Below, piece after piece: positions 19,794 through 32,763 of a DNA stretch of 32,995 nt; the stretch's first letter is position 1; each line of letters begins with the position of its first letter. Below the pieces are notes generated by a model, which had not been told where the DNA came from, did no database searches, and saw only the letters and a list, made by a program, of their open reading frames with translations. This DNA is from Nitrospirota bacterium (lineage in GTDB: Bacteria; Nitrospirota; Nitrospiria; JACQBZ01), in contig JACQBZ010000026.1 of NCBI GenBank assembly GCA_016194285.1, positions 1 through 32,995 of the forward strand. The letters run 5' to 3'. The translations under genes were made by a program, and so were the position numbers.

Positions 19794-19841
19794 CCCTCGG
19801 TGGCAACACGAGGGGCCAACCCCGCTCCAGAGAATGGGGTT
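19794..19841. repeat. Tandem hairpins between lptB and rpoN
   Basis: The first hairpin, CCCTCGGTG/CACGAGGG, has a GCAA (GNRA-type) tetraloop and one bulge (19794-19814). The second pairs AACCCC (19818-19823) with GGGGTT (19836-19841). Neither is followed by a T-tract. They are compositionally like the other REP-type spacers here and probably affect mRNA stability rather than termination. Confidence 0.55.
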
Positions 19842-19866
19842 TGTCGCGAGGCATGACATTGGTATT

Positions 19867-21285
19867 ATGAAAACCCGACTTGATTTAAGACTGACTCAAA
19901 AACTGATCATGACGCCACAGCTGCAGCAGGCGATCAAACTGCTGCAACTCTCCAGGCTGGAACTCACACAAATGGTTTCGCAGGAACTCCTTGAAAATCC
20001 CTTGCTGGACGAGGTCACGGATCTGGAGGAGGCGGTCGAAGAGAAAAAGAACGAGGAAGATGAGACCACGCCGGATACCACGGAGGTCGAGCTGTCGTCA
20101 CAGTGGGAAGAATATATCGGGGATATCCAGCGCGAAAATAAGGAAACCGAGTATCCTTCCGGGGGAGGCGACGAGCCGCCTTCTTATGAACAGACGCTGA
20201 CCCGCCCTCAGTCGCTGTCGGAGCATCTCCTCTGGCAGTTAAGACTATCGGTCGCGACCCCGGAGGAAGTCGAGATCGGTAAAATCATCATTGGGAACAT
20301 CGACGAGGATGGGTATCTCCGGATCACGGTTGAGGAACTGGCGACATTGGCCGAAGCCAAAGGCGAGGAAGTCGAACGAGCGCTCAAGCTCATTCAGAGT
20401 TTTGACCCGATGGGGGTTGGCGCGAGAGATCTCAAAGAATGTTTGTCAATACAACTTGAACAACTTGGGCTGAAAGGCTCATTGGCCGACGTGATTGTAT
20501 CCAACCATCTGAAGGAGATCGAGACTCGAAGGTTTCAGGATATTGTCAAGTCACTGGGCGTTTCTCTGGAAGAAATCTTGGCGATCGTGAAAATCATTCA
20601 AGGCCTTGAACCCAAGCCCGGTCGGCCGTTCTTAACCGATGAAGCCCAAATTATTATTCCGGATATTTTTGTGACGAAGTCCGATGACGACTACGTCGTT
20701 GTCCTTAACGACGACGGCCTGCCCAAACTGCGCATCAGTCCTTACTATCAAAAATTGCTTTTGGAAAAAACGCAAACCCCCGATGCGACCCGCAACTATC
20801 TTGAAAGCCGGTTTCGATCGGCCATATGGTTGGTTCGCAGCATCGAACAACGGAACCGTACGATCTGTAAGGTGGCGCAAAGCATCGTGAAATTCCAACG
20901 GGAGTTCTTGGAAAAAGGGGTGGATAACTTAAAACCCTTGGTCCTGCGACAAGTGGCCGATGATATTTCCATGCATGAGTCGACCATCAGTCGAGTGACG
21001 ACGAACAAGTATATGCACACCCCTCGGGGAATCTTTGAATTGAAGTATTTTTTTAACAGCAGTCTTTCACGAAGCGGGGAGTTCGGCGGGGAAGTCTCCT
21101 CCGTCACGGTACGGGAGATCATCCGTCAGATGGTGTCGGGAGAAGATCCCAAAAATCCCCTCAAAGACCAGGAGATCGTTGAACGTCTCAGAAATCAGCA
21201 TATCGAAATTGCCCGGAGGACGGTGGCGAAATACCGGGTGGAACTTAAAATACCGCAGGCCAGTCGCCGTCGCTATCTATCCTGA
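19867..21285 (+). CDS. rpoN: RNA polymerase sigma-54 factor
   Basis: Sigma-54, 472 residues, directs RNAP to -24/-12 promoters and requires enhancer-binding ATPases. Region I is KTRLDLRLTQKLIMTPQLQQAIKLLQLSRLELTQMVSQELLENPLLDE; an acidic region II follows. The core-binding domain includes IGNIDEDGYLRI and FDPMGVGARDLKECL. The C-terminus has HESTISRVTTNKYMHTPRGIFELKYFF and the RpoN box ARRTVAKYR. The ORF-track start 19834 adds 11 non-conserved residues over repeat sequence; ATG 19867 (MKTRLDLRL) is the family start, though its SD is poor. It lies downstream of lptB, a widely conserved arrangement. Confidence 0.97.
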   Translation: MKTRLDLRLTQKLIMTPQLQQAIKLLQLSRLELTQMVSQELLENPLLDEVTDLEEAVEEKKNEEDETTPDTTEVELSSQWEEYIGDIQRENKETEYPSGGGDEPPSYEQTLTRPQSLSEHLLWQLRLSVATPEEVEIGKIIIGNIDEDGYLRITVEELATLAEAKGEEVERALKLIQSFDPMGVGARDLKECLSIQLEQLGLKGSLADVIVSNHLKEIETRRFQDIVKSLGVSLEEILAIVKIIQGLEPKPGRPFLTDEAQIIIPDIFVTKSDDDYVVVLNDDGLPKLRISPYYQKLLLEKTQTPDATRNYLESRFRSAIWLVRSIEQRNRTICKVAQSIVKFQREFLEKGVDNLKPLVLRQVADDISMHESTISRVTTNKYMHTPRGIFELKYFFNSSLSRSGEFGGEVSSVTVREIIRQMVSGEDPKNPLKDQEIVERLRNQHIEIARRTVAKYRVELKIPQASRRRYLS

Positions 21286-21373
21286 AAATGCGTTTTATTT
21301 TTTGGCCGAATCCAACGGAACAACGGTTCGTTCTCCTTAACGGTAAGCGCTGTTTTTGCTGAAGGAGTGAGGC

Positions 21374-21889
21374 ATGGAGGTTACGATTACCGGTCGACAT
21401 ATGGAAATGACCCAAGCCTTGCGCGATTATACCCGGCAGAGGCTAAAAAAAGTTTCTCGTTATTCCTTTAAACCGATTGAGGCGGCCGTGAGGTTGTCCG
21501 TTGAAAAGTATCGGCATACGGCCGAGATTACGTTATGGGTTGATGGAAATCGGATTCTGGCCAAAGAAGAGACGGACGAAATGTATCGGTCCATCGACAT
21601 GGCGATGGACAAGATCGAACAGAGGTTAAGGAGATACAAAGAGAAGCTATCCCGACACAAGCCGCCGTCGGCAAGGAAAACGCCGGTGCCGAAACCGGTG
21701 AAGAAGACGCCGATGATTACACGGGAAGCCTATATTGTATCCACGCTGTCGATGGACGATGCCCTGTCCCGGTTGGCTTTGGTGAAGACCGATCACGTGG
21801 TCTTTTTCGATGATACGGATGAGCAACTGAAATTGTTGATGCGAGGAAAGAATGGCCACTTCGAATTGACTGAACTTATCATCGATTGA
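21374..21889 (+). CDS. hpf: Ribosome hibernation promoting factor, long-type
   Basis: HPF/RaiA family protein that inactivates 70S ribosomes in stationary phase; the long form dimerises ribosomes to 100S through its C-terminal domain. The N-terminal domain is EVTITGRHMEMTQALRDYTRQRLKKVSRYSFKPIEAAVRLSVEKYRHTAEITLWVDGNRILAKEETDEMYRSIDMAMDKIEQRLRRYKEKL. A basic linker follows, then a C-terminal segment REAYIVSTLSMDDALSRLALVKTDHVVFFDDTDEQLKLLMRGKNGHFELTEL of long-HPF type. At 171 residues it is slightly shorter than typical long forms. GAAGGAG precedes ATG 21374. It is in the standard position after rpoN. Confidence 0.93.
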   Translation: MEVTITGRHMEMTQALRDYTRQRLKKVSRYSFKPIEAAVRLSVEKYRHTAEITLWVDGNRILAKEETDEMYRSIDMAMDKIEQRLRRYKEKLSRHKPPSARKTPVPKPVKKTPMITREAYIVSTLSMDDALSRLALVKTDHVVFFDDTDEQLKLLMRGKNGHFELTELIID

Positions 21890-21902
21890 ACCTTAAGGAA
21901 CG

Positions 21903-22775
21903 ATGTCCATGGACCTGCGATTGGTGATCGTCAGCGGATTGTCCGGTTCCGGAAAAACCAACGCATTGAAATGTTTTGAAGACCTCGGTTTTTTTTGCGT
22001 CGATAATCTCCCGCCACCCTTGTTGCCCGTCTTTGCCGACTTGTGTATCCAATCCAGCGCCGGAATTACGAAAGTCGCCGTCGGAATCGACATCCGGGAG
22101 CGGGACTTCTTACGGGATTTTTTGGCGATTTCGGAACGACTCAAAGGAGAAGGATACCAGTATGAACTGATTTTTTTTGAAGCCGATGACGAAGTGCTGG
22201 TCCGACGGTTTTCCGAAACAAGGCGGCCCCATCCTCTGGCAAAGAATACGCCGATTCTTGAAGGAATCCAAAAGGAGAGGGAGCAGTTGGCTGAACTGAA
22301 GAAACGGTCGGACCGGATTATCGATACCTCCAATTTCACGATCCAGCAGTTGAAGGATGTCATTGCCCAATACTATTTAGATCAAGGGGAGATTCGAAAG
22401 CCCAGCATCTCCGTTATTTCTTTTGGTTATAAATACGGGATTCCCTACGAAACCGATCTGCTGTTCGATGTGCGATTTCTTCAGAACCCGAATTTTGTGT
22501 CCGAGCTGAAGCCTCTATCCGGCGAGGATCCGGCCGTCCAGGACTATGTCTTTCGGAAGCCGGAGGCGGATCGATTCATTGAGCTGGTTAAATCGTTCCT
22601 CTCCTTTCTGGTTCCATTTTATGAAAAGGAAGGCCGTCCCTATTTAACCCTCGCGATTGGCTGTACGGGAGGGCGTCATCGCTCCGTGGCCATCGCTCGA
22701 CGGCTTCATGATGATCTTAAGGCAGCCCATTATCAAGTGGTGCTGCGACATCGCGATGTCAATCGGGATCGCTGA
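21903..22775 (+). CDS. rapZ: RNase adapter protein RapZ / nucleotide-binding YvcJ family
   Basis: P-loop protein of the RapZ family, 290 residues. In E. coli it guides RNase E to the GlmZ sRNA and senses glucosamine-6-phosphate; in other phyla the role is less clear. Walker A GLSGSGKT is near residue 13, followed by ALKCFEDLGFFCVDNLPPPLLP, a family signature. The C-terminal domain has ISFGYKYGIPYETDLLFDVRFLQNPNF and AIGCTGGRHRSVAIARRL. ATG 21903 or 21909 could be the start. It follows hpf directly, without the ptsN or hprK gene often found between them. The stop is immediately followed by the ATG of the next ORF. Confidence 0.95.
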   Translation: MSMDLRLVIVSGLSGSGKTNALKCFEDLGFFCVDNLPPPLLPVFADLCIQSSAGITKVAVGIDIRERDFLRDFLAISERLKGEGYQYELIFFEADDEVLVRRFSETRRPHPLAKNTPILEGIQKEREQLAELKKRSDRIIDTSNFTIQQLKDVIAQYYLDQGEIRKPSISVISFGYKYGIPYETDLLFDVRFLQNPNFVSELKPLSGEDPAVQDYVFRKPEADRFIELVKSFLSFLVPFYEKEGRPYLTLAIGCTGGRHRSVAIARRLHDDLKAAHYQVVLRHRDVNRDR

Positions 22776-23552
22776 ATGATCAAGAAATCGAAAACGTCTC
22801 TGCTGTTAACATTGAATTTGGAGCATTGCTCTATCGAGACCGTCATTGGACTACTCAAGGCCACGACGACCGATGGAACCCTCCTCGACCAAATCGCAAA
22901 GCTGCGCCATCGGGATCAAGCCCTCATGGAGATGCTGATCAGTCACCCCAGGGTCATGCCGCAAACCTTCCTTTTTCTCTATAGCAATGCCTCGGCCGAT
23001 TTTAAAAAGCGGATTCAAGCGATAAAGAAGGAGCCCGTTTCCCCGGCCAACAAGGGCTTGGTCCCGTATCAAGGACTTGGCATAGAACCGGTCTCAACGG
23101 AAGGGGGGATTGAAAAAGATCATCCAACGGCAGATAAGGAGACGCTTTATCAACGCATTCAAAAGATGCCGGTGGCTGAAAAGGTACAATTCGCGCTACG
23201 CGCCGGAAAGGATGCGCGAAGCCTCTTGCTCAAGGATCCCAATCGTCAGGTGTCTCAGGCGGTTTTGGCCAGTCCGAAAATTACCGAGGATGAAATTCTT
23301 CTCATCGCGCAATCGCGAAACGTTTCAGATGACATTTTAAGAAGTGTCGGTAAAAATAAAGAGTGGCTAAAGAACTACTCTATTCTTTTCGCGCTCATCG
23401 CCAATCCGAAGACTCCGGTTGGGATTTCGGTCTCGCTGTTGGGGTCGGTCAAGGTAAAGGATCTGGGCCTCCTGGTCAAAAATCGGAACATTCCCGAAGC
23501 CGTTCGATCGGGCGCCCAACGTCTATTGTATGCGAAGCAAAAGCAGTCCTAA
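22776..23552 (+). CDS. Conserved-looking helical-repeat protein of unknown function
   Basis: 258 residues with no signal peptide or membrane segment, so probably cytosolic. The N-terminal part (to about 90) is predicted helical by eye, a linker with PVSPANKGLVPYQ follows, then a C-terminal series of short helix pairs: LLKDPNRQVSQAVLASPKITEDEILLIAQSRNVSDDILRSVGKNKEWLKNYSILFALIANPKTPVGISVSLLGSVKVKDLGLLVKNRNIPEAVRSGAQRLL. The recurring NP-K-T(P) / S-R-N-V and K-N-R-N-I-P motifs look like HEAT/variant-LRR-type repeats; I recall similar proteins of unknown function in Desulfobacterota and related phyla. ATG 22776 abuts the rapZ stop (TGAATG), so co-translation is likely. No specific function is assigned. 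Confidence 0.85.
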   Translation: MIKKSKTSLLLTLNLEHCSIETVIGLLKATTTDGTLLDQIAKLRHRDQALMEMLISHPRVMPQTFLFLYSNASADFKKRIQAIKKEPVSPANKGLVPYQGLGIEPVSTEGGIEKDHPTADKETLYQRIQKMPVAEKVQFALRAGKDARSLLLKDPNRQVSQAVLASPKITEDEILLIAQSRNVSDDILRSVGKNKEWLKNYSILFALIANPKTPVGISVSLLGSVKVKDLGLLVKNRNIPEAVRSGAQRLLYAKQKQS

Positions 23553-23741: not shown

Positions 23742-23945
23742 ATGGTTCCAAATATCAGGGTTAAACGGTACAAGACGAGAGACATCTGCAAAATTTTTGA
23801 TATCTCAAAGGCCACGCTCTTTCGTTGGGAAAAGGATGGACTGATCTCCAATGTCGGCCGAGACTGGCGTAACTGGCGCCTCTACTCCAAGCATAATATA
23901 AAAGAGATCCGTAAAATCATGCAAAGCAGAAACAGCCGACTCTAG
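23742..23945 (+). CDS. Mini MerR-type (helix-turn-helix only) DNA-binding protein
   Basis: 67 residues. YKTRDICKIFDISKATLFRWEKDGLISNVGRDWRNWRLYSKHNIKEIRKIM matches the MerR-type winged helix: a recognition HTH (DICKIFDISKATLFRWEKDG), the wing (RDWRNWRLYS) and a following helix. It lacks the long dimerisation helix and effector domain of full MerR regulators, so it resembles stand-alone MerR/AlpA/excisionase-like proteins. It lies 26 nt upstream of pilM and downstream of a strong promoter with a -10 palindrome; a role in controlling pilus assembly genes is inferred from position only. GAGG precedes the ATG. Confidence 0.82.
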   Translation: MVPNIRVKRYKTRDICKIFDISKATLFRWEKDGLISNVGRDWRNWRLYSKHNIKEIRKIMQSRNSRL

Positions 23946-23971: not shown

Positions 23972-25042
23972 ATGTTTTTTCCCTTTTCAAAAGCCAATCC
24001 CCTGTTTGGACTGGATATTGGTTCCAGTGCGATCAAAGTCGTTCAACTCAAGGAGAAGAAAACGGGTTATTATCTCGAGAAATTTGGCATTAAGACTTTG
24101 GCCCCTGAAATGATCGTGGACGGTACGGTGATGGATGCGAGCAGTGTTGGGGGTATCATAAAGGAATTGCTGGCCGAGCAGAAGATCAAGCTGAAGGATG
24201 TGGCCATTTCAATTTCCGGCCATTCCGTGATCGTGAAAAAAATTAGCCTTCCGGCGATGACCGAAGACGAACTGGAAGAATCGATCAAGTGGGAAGCGGA
24301 ACAGTATATCCCGTTCGACATCAACGACGTCAATATCGATTTTCATATTTTGGGAACGGTCGAAGGGCAGGATGGACAGCCCCAGATGAATGTCCTTTTG
24401 GTGGCGGCGAAAAAGGACAAGCTGAATGAGTACATCTCCTTGGTGGCCGATGCGGGCCTGACTCCCCGGGTGGTCGATGTGGACGCCTTTGCGATTGAAA
24501 ATATGTATGGGGTGAACTACGGCGTTCGGGAGAGTGAAGTCGTCGCCTTGGTGAATATCGGCGCCAGCGTGATGAACATCAACATCTTAAAGAATACGAT
24601 GTCGTCCTTTACACGCGACATTTCAATCGGCGGAAACCGGTACACCGAAACGATTCAGAAAGAATTGAATCTGAGTTATCAGGACGCGGAACAGGCCAAG
24701 CGATTGGAGAACCCGGAAGGGGTGAATCCCGAGGCTCTTTCCGCGGTGATGAATGCCGTGAATACCGAAGTGGCCGGTGAGGTCACCCGCTCCGTTGATT
24801 ATTTTAAAACAGCCTCCGCGCAGGAGAATATCGACAAAGTTGTTTTATGCGGAGGAGCGGCCCGATCGAGAGGACTGGTCACATTGCTGGGTGAACGTCT
24901 TGGGGTACCGGTCGAGCTGGCCAACCCTTTCAATCAAATCGATATTGATAAGAAGACGTTCAGCGTTGAAGAGGTTCAGGAGTTGGCTCCGCAGGCCGCC
25001 GTAGGCGTCGGCCTTGCGATTCGGAAGATGGGTGATCGATGA
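23972..25042 (+). CDS. pilM: Type IV pilus assembly protein PilM
   Basis: Actin-like ATP-binding cytoplasmic protein of the type IV pilus alignment complex, 356 residues. The nucleotide-binding phosphate-1 motif is FGLDIGSSAIKVVQLKEK at the N-terminus. VVALVNIGASVMNINILKNTMSSFTRDISIGGNRYTETIQKELNLSYQDAEQAKRL and the adenosine motif VVLCGGAARSRGLVTLLGERLGVPVELANPF are characteristic. It recruits PilN through the PilN N-terminal peptide. AAAGGTAGG lies upstream of ATG 23972. The stop overlaps pilN by 4 nt (ATGA). Confidence 0.96.
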   Translation: MFFPFSKANPLFGLDIGSSAIKVVQLKEKKTGYYLEKFGIKTLAPEMIVDGTVMDASSVGGIIKELLAEQKIKLKDVAISISGHSVIVKKISLPAMTEDELEESIKWEAEQYIPFDINDVNIDFHILGTVEGQDGQPQMNVLLVAAKKDKLNEYISLVADAGLTPRVVDVDAFAIENMYGVNYGVRESEVVALVNIGASVMNINILKNTMSSFTRDISIGGNRYTETIQKELNLSYQDAEQAKRLENPEGVNPEALSAVMNAVNTEVAGEVTRSVDYFKTASAQENIDKVVLCGGAARSRGLVTLLGERLGVPVELANPFNQIDIDKKTFSVEEVQELAPQAAVGVGLAIRKMGDR

Positions 25043-29289: not shown

Positions 29290-30492
29290 ATGCTCAGGTA
29301 TCTCAACGGTGGCGAGTCACACGGCAAACTGCTTTTGGCCATCCTGGAGGGAATGCCCTCGGGTGTTCCCTTGACCGAGGCGGTTGTCAATCTCGACCTC
29401 GCCCGCCGGCAGAAAGGATACGGCCGCGGGGGGAGAATGAAGATCGAGCAGGATCAGGTTGAATTTGTCTCGGGTGTCCGGAAGGGCTTTACCTTGGGAA
29501 GCCCGATCGGGCTGCAGATCGCCAATAAAGATTGGAAGAATTGGCAGGAGATCATGGCGGTTGAACCCCCAAGGGGAGCAGCCCCGGAGGGGAGGGGCCC
29601 CGTTCTGGTTGACCCGGCGATTCAACGCGTGGTGACCAAGCCGAGGCCGGGCCATGCCGATCTGGTCGGTGCGATCAAATATGCCCATACCGATATTCGG
29701 AATGTGCTCGAGAAGGCCAGCGCCCGTGAGACGGCGATCCGCGTCGCGGTCGGCGCCGTGGCGAAGGTCCTGTTGAGTCAGTTCCAGATCACCCTCGTGA
29801 GTCATGTCCGGGAAATCGGGGGCATTCAGGCCGAAACGAGCCGATTAAGTCTCGAACAGATCCGGGAAGCGGCGGAGGCGTCCGAGGTTCGTTGCGCGGA
29901 TGCGGCCGCGGCCGGGAAGATGATCGAAAAGATCCGCGAAGCCAAAGACAAAGGCGATACCTTGGGAGGGGTGTTCGAGGTGATCGCGGACAATGTTCCG
30001 ATCGGCCTCGGGAGCTATGGTCAGTGGGACCGTCGATTGGGTGCCCGCCTGGCCTTTGCGTTGATGAGCATCCAGGCCATGAAAGGGGTTGAAATCGGCA
30101 TGGGGTTCGAATCCGCGCGACGGTTCGGTTCCGAGGTCCATGATGAAATATTCTATGACGAAGCCGCCGGACGATTTTACCGAAAGACCAACAACGCGGG
30201 CGGCCTCGAGGGAGGAATCACCAACGGCCAACCTATCGTGCTCCGCGTGGCGATGAAGCCGATCTCCACGCTCTATTCGCCCCTGAAAAGCGTCGACATC
30301 AAGAGCAAAGAGCCCTTTGAGGCGACGGTGGAACGGTCCGATATCTGTACCGTGCCGGCGGCGGGGGTCATCGGCGAGGCGGTTGTGGCCTTTGAACTGG
30401 CCGCCGCCATGATCGAAAAATTCGGGGGAGACAGCCTGATCGAGATGAAACGCAATTTCACCGGCTATCAAGAGTATGTTAAAAACTGGTAA
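29290..30492 (+). CDS. aroC: Chorismate synthase
   Basis: Final shikimate-pathway enzyme (EPSP to chorismate, reduced FMN cofactor), cytosolic, 400 residues. [88 protein letters not shown], and the C-terminal [25 protein letters not shown] are diagnostic. The segment [22 protein letters not shown] before [10 protein letters not shown] looks longer than usual and is encoded by C/G-rich repeats. It follows pilQ by 35 nt and its TAA overlaps the aroK/B ATG by one base. The pil-aro arrangement is also known in Geobacter-type genomes. Confidence 0.97.
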
Positions 30493-32099
30493 TGAAAAAC
30501 ATCGTATTGATTGGTTTCATGGGGACCGGAAAAAGCGAGGTCGGGAAACGGCTGGCCCGCGAGCTCGGTTGGGCTTTCGAGGATACCGATCTTTGGATTC
30601 AAAAACGGGCCGGCCGGACCATTCCCGAGATTTTCAAGCAATCCGGTGAGGCCCATTTCAGAAAGCTGGAGAGAGAAGTCGTGGCAGAGTTGGCCGACAG
30701 TAAATCCTGCGTAATCGCGACCGGGGGCGGTGTGGTGATGGATCCGGTGAACCTCCGCCGTCTGCAACGCAACGGAGTCCTGATCGGTTTGGAGGCTTCC
30801 CCGGATGCCATTATGACCCGAACGGCCGGGCCGGAGCGTCCGTTGCTACAGCACGGCCGACGTATTGAGCGTATCCGAGAATTGCTGAAGGTCCGGCGTC
30901 CGTTTTATCGCCTCTCCGATCACCAAATCAATACCACCCACAAGACTCCTGAACAAGTTGTGAAAATGATCCGGCATATTGTTTCAGAGCCTTCCACCCT
31001 TCGGGTCGATCTCGCAGAGCGAGGTTATCCGATCGAGATCGGGAAGGGAATTCTGCCCCGGATCGGAGAGCGGTTGGTCTCACTTGGGCTCAAGGGAAAA
31101 GTCGGCTTGATTACGAATCCACGGGTGGCTCGTCTTTATGGTTCCATCGCGTCGCGCAGTCTACGAAAGGCCGGTTTCGAGGTCGCCGTGGTCATGCTGC
31201 CCGACGGGGAGCGGTACAAGAATCTCCGGTCGGTTTCCCGCGTATATGATGAACTGGTCCGAAGATCATTTGAGCGAAGCTCGACTCTCCTGGCTCTGGG
31301 CGGTGGCGTTATCGGTGATCTGGCCGGGTTTGCGGCCGCGACCTTCATGCGCGGAATCGGGTTCGTCCAGGTCCCGACCACGCTGGCGGCCCAGGTGGAT
31401 GCAAGCATCGGTGGAAAGACCGGGGTGGATCACGCTCATGGGAAAAACCTGATCGGCTCATTTTACCAGCCGAAACTGGTCTTGATCGATCCGGAGGTTT
31501 TAAGAACGCTGATCCGGCGCGAATTCGTTTCGGGTCTTGCCGAGGTGATCAAGTATGGCGTGATCCGGGATGAAGGGTTCTTCTCCTATCTCGAAGACAA
31601 TATGGACAAGATCCTTAAATTGGAGGCGGCGGCCCTGACCCATGCCATCCGCCGGTCCTGTGCCATCAAAGCGGATGTGGTCCAAAAAGACGAGCGGGAA
31701 AGCGGGTTGAGAAAGATCCTCAACTACGGACATACCTTCGGGCATGCGCTCGAAACCGTCACGAACTACCGAACCTATTTTCACGGGGAGGCCGTTTCGA
31801 TCGGGATCGCCTTTGCCGCGCAACTGTCCGTCCGGCTCGGCCTTTCGGATGCTTCAGGCGCCCGGCGTCAAATCGAGCTCCTCAGCCGGGCGGGGCTTCC
31901 GGTCGCCTTGCCGAAAATCAAGGCGGCCGATATACTTAAAATTATGAAGCTGGACAAGAAAGTGACCGACAGGAGAATCCATTTCGTTCTGGCCGAAAAG
32001 ATCGGCCGGGTCGCAGTAAAGCCGGTGGAAGAAAAGGAGATCGTCGGGCTATTGAATCAGCATAGCGAGCGCAATCCCCGCCTGCGAAGGCGGGGTTAG
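30492..32099 (+). CDS. aroK-aroB: Bifunctional shikimate kinase / 3-dehydroquinate synthase fusion
   Basis: 535 residues combining two shikimate-pathway steps. Residues 1-165: shikimate kinase with Walker A GFMGTGKS (8-15), the shikimate-binding DTD (31-33), GGG (78-80) and LID ERPLL. Residues about 170-525: 3-dehydroquinate synthase with PDGERYKN, LGGGVIGDLAGFAAATFMRG, VPTTLAAQVDASIGGKTGVDHAHGKNLIGSFYQP and metal ligands in SGLAEVIKYG (Glu), NYGHTFGHALE (His) and FHGEAVSIG (His). Both active sites look intact. These genes are often adjacent but separate. The last residues, SERNPRLRRRG, are encoded by a REP-like hairpin that also supplies the TAG stop. The start overlaps aroC by one base. Confidence 0.96.
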   Translation: MKNIVLIGFMGTGKSEVGKRLARELGWAFEDTDLWIQKRAGRTIPEIFKQSGEAHFRKLEREVVAELADSKSCVIATGGGVVMDPVNLRRLQRNGVLIGLEASPDAIMTRTAGPERPLLQHGRRIERIRELLKVRRPFYRLSDHQINTTHKTPEQVVKMIRHIVSEPSTLRVDLAERGYPIEIGKGILPRIGERLVSLGLKGKVGLITNPRVARLYGSIASRSLRKAGFEVAVVMLPDGERYKNLRSVSRVYDELVRRSFERSSTLLALGGGVIGDLAGFAAATFMRGIGFVQVPTTLAAQVDASIGGKTGVDHAHGKNLIGSFYQPKLVLIDPEVLRTLIRREFVSGLAEVIKYGVIRDEGFFSYLEDNMDKILKLEAAALTHAIRRSCAIKADVVQKDERESGLRKILNYGHTFGHALETVTNYRTYFHGEAVSIGIAFAAQLSVRLGLSDASGARRQIELLSRAGLPVALPKIKAADILKIMKLDKKVTDRRIHFVLAEKIGRVAVKPVEEKEIVGLLNQHSERNPRLRRRG

Positions 32100-32107: not shown

Positions 32108-32220
32108 TCAAAATAAGGTTTTCTCCACCCGGATCGAAGAATCCCCGGCTGTGAAGCCGGGGTTCTTCAAAGCGGGGTTCTGATAAAAACCGGCCCGGTA
32201 TCAACCGAAGGAGGATGGAA
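32100..32220. other. Spacer between aroK/B and the lipoprotein gene
   Basis: A 121-nt spacer made largely of repeat sequence: the right flank of the first REP-like element, a T/A-rich stretch (AAAATAAGGTTTTCTCC), the second hairpin (32143-32162) and an AGCGGGGTTC partial echo (32171-32180). The AAGGAGG SD of the lipoprotein gene is at 32208-32214. No convincing -35/-10 pair was found. Confidence 0.5.
32141..32170 (+). terminator. REP-like hairpin with TTCTTCAA tail, possible terminator after aro genes
   Basis: CCCCGGC (32143-32149) pairs with GCCGGGG (32156-32162), loop TGTGAA, followed by TTCTTCAA. Stem and tail are identical to the element after rplQ (17831-17858), differing only in the loop. 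Two operon ends with the same structure suggest either a repeat family used as terminators or terminators that became the target of repeats. Confidence 0.6.
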
Positions 32221-32763
32221 ATGGCCAGAAAACGATATGATATTGGTTGGTTGTTTTGTTTGATTCTTTTATTACAAAGCTGTGGCAATGATGCCTCCTT
32301 TGATGCGGTAGTGGAACCGGCGACCCAGACATCAACAGGGTGTACATTCACGGCGATAACAGTTACGGGACCCATTGGAGGCGCTACTCCTGTCTATTGT
32401 CAAACAGTGGGCCCTGTACAGTTCCATGTACAGAGGTCCGCGGACGATACAACCCCGGTGGGCGATGCAAATGTTAGGATTGATATCGGGAACAGCGTGG
32501 GCGACGGTGTTTTGCTATTAAATTCTACAGGGACGGCCTGTTTTAACGGCGGCGATCCCACTGCCAGTCCTCCTCCATCCGGCTGTCTCTCACTTGATAC
32601 GAAGACGGATAAGTTCGGTGTTGTTTCATTCCAGGTTCGAACCACTCCGATCGAGGGTTGTGACGGCGCCACTACAGATATCACAAGCAGTACATTTGCA
32701 CGGGTTACGATTTCCAATTCTAGTGGAAACTGGCAGATGGACAACACGATCAAATGCAAGTAG
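32221..32763 (+). CDS. Small Cys-rich lipoprotein with possible Ig-like domain
   Basis: 180 residues from ATG 32221. AAGGAGG at 32208-32214 directly abuts the ORF-track ATG 32215, so 32221 (spacing 6) is the better start. The signal RKRYDIGWLFCLILLLQSC ends in a lipobox (LLQSC). The mature part is Thr/Ser/Gly-rich, with six further Cys and a beta-rich look. VQFHVQRSADDTTPVGDANVRIDIG...LDTKTDKFGVVSFQVRTT resembles bacterial Ig-like (Big-1-type) domains, in which T-D-x-x-G is typical. No function is known to me. It is flanked by repeat hairpins and a terminator-intron pair, so it may be accessory. Confidence 0.82.
   Translation: MARKRYDIGWLFCLILLLQSCGNDASFDAVVEPATQTSTGCTFTAITVTGPIGGATPVYCQTVGPVQFHVQRSADDTTPVGDANVRIDIGNSVGDGVLLLNSTGTACFNGGDPTASPPPSGCLSLDTKTDKFGVVSFQVRTTPIEGCDGATTDITSSTFARVTISNSSGNWQMDNTIKCK

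Follow-up and report, generated by a model that had tools for sequence, protein, structure and literature searches.

Gene X, located in a 32,995-nucleotide stretch of DNA from the phylum Nitrospirota, class Nitrospiria (the window), represents a previously unnamed, conserved protein family for which there is no Pfam or NCBIfam model. Its product is predicted to be entirely helical and carries a strongly basic C-terminal domain. We tentatively propose that this protein acts in the cytosol as an RNA- or ribosome-binding accessory factor or adaptor, in which a basic solenoid would lie on RNA while the N-terminal part makes contact with a protein or has a regulatory function. Adjacency to tlyA is conserved across the orthologs, and the copy found in the window, located behind rapZ, is an exception. 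The survey shifts the focus for X from RapZ to TlyA and RNA.

Gene X and the architecture of its product

According to Pfam assignments, the gene order in the window is rpoA-rplQ-lptC-lptA-lptB-rpoN-hpf-rapZ-X-merR-pilM-N-O-P-Q-aroC-aroKB. The locus of X comprises the following features:

21903..22775, + strand: rapZ, the 5′ neighbor of X, in contact with it only in the window's own family f1 (Pfam)
22773..22778, + strand: junction of the rapZ stop and the X start, TGAATG, compatible with translational coupling
22776..23552, + strand: gene X, helical-repeat protein of 258 aa (ORF with an ATG start, conservation of homologs)
22809..23027, + strand: N-terminal helical domain of X, residues 12–84 (alignment, model, charge)
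23028..23135, + strand: variable linker of X, residues 85–120, predicted to be disordered (pLDDT below 50, alignment)
23136..23549, + strand: C-terminal helical domain of X, putatively a solenoid, residues 121–258 (conservation, C-terminal model, charge)
23742..23945, + strand: gene for a small MerR-type HTH protein of 67 aa, the 3′ neighbor of X (Pfam)
23972..25042, + strand: pilM, the first gene of pilMNOPQ (Pfam)

The rapZ gene was identified by matches to PF03668 (E 1.5e-49) and PF22740 (E 1.6e-45). Since its TGA stop codon occupies positions 22773–22775, the ATG of X directly abuts rapZ and starts on the next base, as stated in the initial annotation of this DNA. This 0-bp junction is not fixed, even within f1, where it varies from a 1-bp overlap to a 6-bp gap. 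X is a real gene, evolutionarily conserved and subject to purifying selection. It is present in a single copy in its own genome and has full-length orthologs with 67%–79% identity within f1; the dN/dS ratio was 0.10–0.17 for close relatives in this family and 0.07 in a second family, and 23 columns were invariant in the alignment of 18 members. Therefore, X is more than a chance ORF.

Several other loci of the window deserve mention. In the rpoN-hpf-rapZ cluster (19834–22775), no gene is located between hpf and rapZ, and thus ptsN, which occupies this place in E. coli, is absent from it. A single ORF (30492–32099) encodes a fusion of shikimate kinase and 3-dehydroquinate synthase, for which several relatives have separate ORFs. 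The 182-aa ORF 3′ of aroKB (32215–32763) had no Pfam match, and its homolog is present in the same aro cluster of another locus, L092.

The orthologs of X share a common architecture: about 70 N-terminal residues form a helical part, which a variable linker connects to a C-terminal domain with a length of about 139 residues; the N-terminal part is missing in some Nitrospiria (families f6 and f7). The full-length model is all-helical, with pLDDT below 50 only in residues 1–11 and 85–120. The C-terminal domain is the best conserved part of the protein, with R148, L151, E173, R189, W197, and N210 being invariant in the orthologs, and its AlphaFold model built with 72 sequences consists of helices throughout (pLDDT 95.9, pTM 0.86). 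When the profile was compared with itself, two halves with weak similarity emerged, spaced by about 45 residues (P ~1e-4). The short helical repeats with NPKTP and KNRNIPE motifs, recognized in the initial annotation, agree with the all-helical model, and the motifs correspond to residues 210–214 and 235–241, respectively. Neither a signal peptide nor a membrane helix was evident from inspection of the sequence by eye. Pfam, NCBIfam, and PDB searches assigned X to no catalytic family, in line with the earlier remark that it contains no known catalytic motif.

Distribution and gene neighborhoods

The profile search of 396 Nitrospirota genomes revealed X-type matches in 130 of them, representing 85 of 169 genera. 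Strong matches were found in about 123 genomes, this number being obtained by subtracting seven genomes with weak or paralog-level matches only, as judged from the match table. Scanning of genome contigs with one X sequence retrieved only close relatives. Searches of plasmids and of viral contigs yielded no matches to X, and a literature search returned nothing on the protein or on its gene pair. NPKTP-type proteins similar to X may also occur in other phyla. In the phylogenetic tree, the X orthologs formed one clade (100/100) apart from the paralogs. The paralog contains the C-terminal module twice, in tandem. Many of these genomes carry it, and no operon partner recurs beside it; the tandem-module paralogs (L094–L103 and L105) were mostly found in single-gene contexts.

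The tlyA gene, whose product contains FtsJ and S4 domains and is of the rRNA methyltransferase type, is located directly 5′ of X in 71 of the 103 mapped orthologs, and in 61 of these the spacing is from −25 to +30 bp. The usual gene order is ispA-dxs-tlyA-X, often followed by genes encoding a PLP decarboxylase and a spermidine-synthase-like protein. X is separated from tlyA in Nitrospiria and in family f20; in the latter, neither tlyA nor a rapZ/pil partner was found beside X in the stretches read. In Nitrospiria and f17, X is located behind rapZ and, where the contig extends that far, before merR-pilM, and the latter pair is kept next to X in the Nitrospiria-side lineages. Family f18 bridges the tlyA and merR-pilM contexts since its gene order is tlyA-X-merR-pilM (L077, L119, and L121). 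The contexts of X shift slowly along lineages, as evidenced by 13 changes of context labels on the ortholog tree versus 40.5 in shuffles.

Arrangements of the rapZ-(merR)-pilM type without X were found in several lineages (L107–L115). In genome G008 (L112:3755–4735), the lipoprotein-like gene and merR are separated by 980 bp at the place expected for X; this stretch contains no convincing ORF and may be a remnant of X. The small MerR-type HTH gene adjoins pilM in many genomes of Nitrospirota, whether X is present or absent, and its product is a candidate regulator of pil genes.

The initial annotation suggested a functional link of X with RapZ or with the LPS/sigma-54 cluster, which does not stand up to the survey. 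Adjacency to rapZ is not conserved across the orthologs; direct contact is confined to f1 and is thus a peculiarity of one bacterial family. In other Nitrospiria-type families, a gene for a UbiX-type flavoprotein and/or a small lipoprotein-like gene is located between rapZ and X. Such insertions were observed in L054–L056, L087, L088, and L090, and the lipoprotein-like gene had no Pfam match. Outside Nitrospiria and f17/f18, most X orthologs follow tlyA and have no rapZ or lpt nearby. In two genomes assembled in single contigs, the distance between X and rapZ was 253–803 kb (rapZ at 711,674 and X at 1,514,836 in G208; rapZ at 1,081,564 and X at 1,334,543 in G293). Since the orthologs sit elsewhere and X and rapZ are so far apart, the family is largely scattered with respect to rapZ and lpt. 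Of the neighborhood seen in the window, rapZ and lpt are missing beside most orthologs, and part of the family retains merR-pilM, which speaks weakly for a link with the pil genes.

Possible functions of the putative basic solenoid

The C-terminal domain carries a net charge of +9 to +18, with a mean of +13.7 over 103 orthologs, and the N-terminal part is acidic (−6.1 on average). The C-terminal domain is about twice as highly charged as TlyA and comes close to a ribosomal protein; ribosomal protein L17 encoded in the window has a charge of +18 over 141 aa. In terms of best-window charge, X (13.6) was at the top of 19 families of the same neighborhoods, followed by a family with 8.5, and the values for TlyA and RapZ were 7.2 and 5.1. 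In a cruder comparison, with shadow ORFs included, 3 of 43 families reached or exceeded the value of X. At least 90% of the orthologs have basic residues at 14 positions, including R148, R189, K212, and R244.

RNA or ribosome binding is proposed mainly because of this charge pattern, which is circumstantial as a pointer to such a function. X would be a soluble, cytosolic, two-part protein in which a flexible linker joins an acidic helical segment at the N-terminus to a basic C-terminal alpha-solenoid of distant LRV/ARM/HEAT-like repeats, probably without enzyme activity of its own. We infer that the solenoid could bind RNA, probably rRNA or a pre-ribosome in view of the rRNA methyltransferase TlyA as the usual operon partner of X, and that the N-terminal part could contact a protein or regulate the binding. 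In f1, the rapZ message probably also serves for the translation of X, with no special tie of X to RapZ. One point against the tie to TlyA is that TlyA was found in 394 of 396 genomes, irrespective of X, and X in about a third; therefore, TlyA does not need X. Foldseek revealed no fold match of X to a known RNA binder, and a basic surface would be just as compatible with binding to DNA, acidic proteins, or the head groups of lipids.

Should X indeed interact with ribosomes or pre-rRNA, it would represent a new ribosome-maturation accessory factor outside model bacteria. Nitrospirota are environmental bacteria, including nitrite oxidizers and sulfate reducers. A broader reading, in which X founds a phylum-wide family of RNA/ribosome-binding alpha-solenoids with a tandem-duplicated paralog and a partner in TlyA-type rRNA methylation, re-wired to the rapZ/pil unit in Nitrospiria, seems unlikely.

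The X-merR-pilM order in f1 (the window), f7, f9, f17, and f18, the last of which still has tlyA upstream, suggests that X could be a cytosolic accessory protein of type IV pili that takes part in assembly or regulation jointly with PilM and the small regulator of the MerR type. However, most X orthologs are not located near pil genes, pilM is present in 391 of 396 genomes versus about 123 for X, and merR-pilM occurs without X in genomes of f2, f14, and f23. We consider a pilus function rather improbable.

A similarly low probability is given to X being a general protein-protein scaffold, for which the operons would be mere convenient expression contexts shared with housekeeping genes. ARM/HEAT-like solenoids often bind peptides, and the best Foldseek matches of X were peptide-binding ARM-like proteins, with insignificant E-values. 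Furthermore, since PilM, TlyA, and RapZ (the latter found in 303 of 326 genomes) are all near-universal, co-occurrence is uninformative and cannot discriminate between partners of X. On the other hand, the uniformly high basic charge and the 14 conserved basic positions would be atypical of an ordinary peptide binder.

A strongly basic alpha-solenoid would also suit a DNA-binding or nucleoid-associated helical-repeat protein of the AlkD-type, HEAT-like and without catalysis, but no AlkD-type sequence or fold was present among the matches listed and the neighborhoods of X are not related to DNA repair, making this function quite unlikely. It is highly improbable that X regulates RapZ or acts as its partner, for instance through control of the RNA-binding C-terminal domain of RapZ: the junction is tight throughout f1 and E. 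coli RapZ binds RNA, which would suit a basic helical-repeat partner, but elsewhere the two genes are separated by other genes or by hundreds of kilobases, and nearly all genomes lacking X contain RapZ.

Relation to known families and folds

No matches of X to Pfam or NCBIfam models were found at E ≤10. Comparison with PDB sequences yielded only a chance match (E 1.8), and PDB sequence matches such as those to POU homeodomains over 35 residues were rejected as chance. Together with the literature search, these results bear out the earlier impression that the family is uncharacterized. Foldseek searches with the full-length and C-terminal models returned no significant match (best E 0.1 and 0.28, respectively); for the C-terminal domain, the highest TM-score among the matches listed was 0.38, and the top matches were ARM/HEAT-like with E >0.2. 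Pfam scans of the X orthologs yielded weak matches only.

Weak matches also involved two families of the DUF type. DUF4274 (PF14096) matched 25 of 72 orthologs (best E 1.4e-4), but these stayed below its cut-off and no match was found in the genome of the window at E ≤10. DUF2336 (PF10098) weakly matched one paralog (E 0.0055), but the score was 16.6 versus a cut-off of 34.6, and X itself had no match. X resembles ARM/HEAT proteins in being all-helical, and its best Foldseek matches were designed ARM repeats, ZYG11B/ZER1, CLASP2, and PP2A PR65; however, the scores were insignificant and there was no Pfam ARM or HEAT match.

As for the LRV repeats (PF01816; LRV_2, PF25591), X itself has no PF01816 match, with none at its locus at E ≤10, and the spacing in its profile self-match, about 45 residues, differs from the 26-position LRV unit. 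An LRV structure was found neither among the 50 Foldseek matches listed nor when PDB sequences were searched with the profile (E ≤10). On the other hand, X shares with LRV proteins short helical repeats and an N-P-x-T-P-like motif, and weak LRV matches were found in 9 of 72 orthologs (best E 1.4e-3). Since the double-domain paralog L099, with its tandem modules, just passes the LRV cut-off (21.9 versus 21.6 bits), X is likely distantly akin to LRV repeats.
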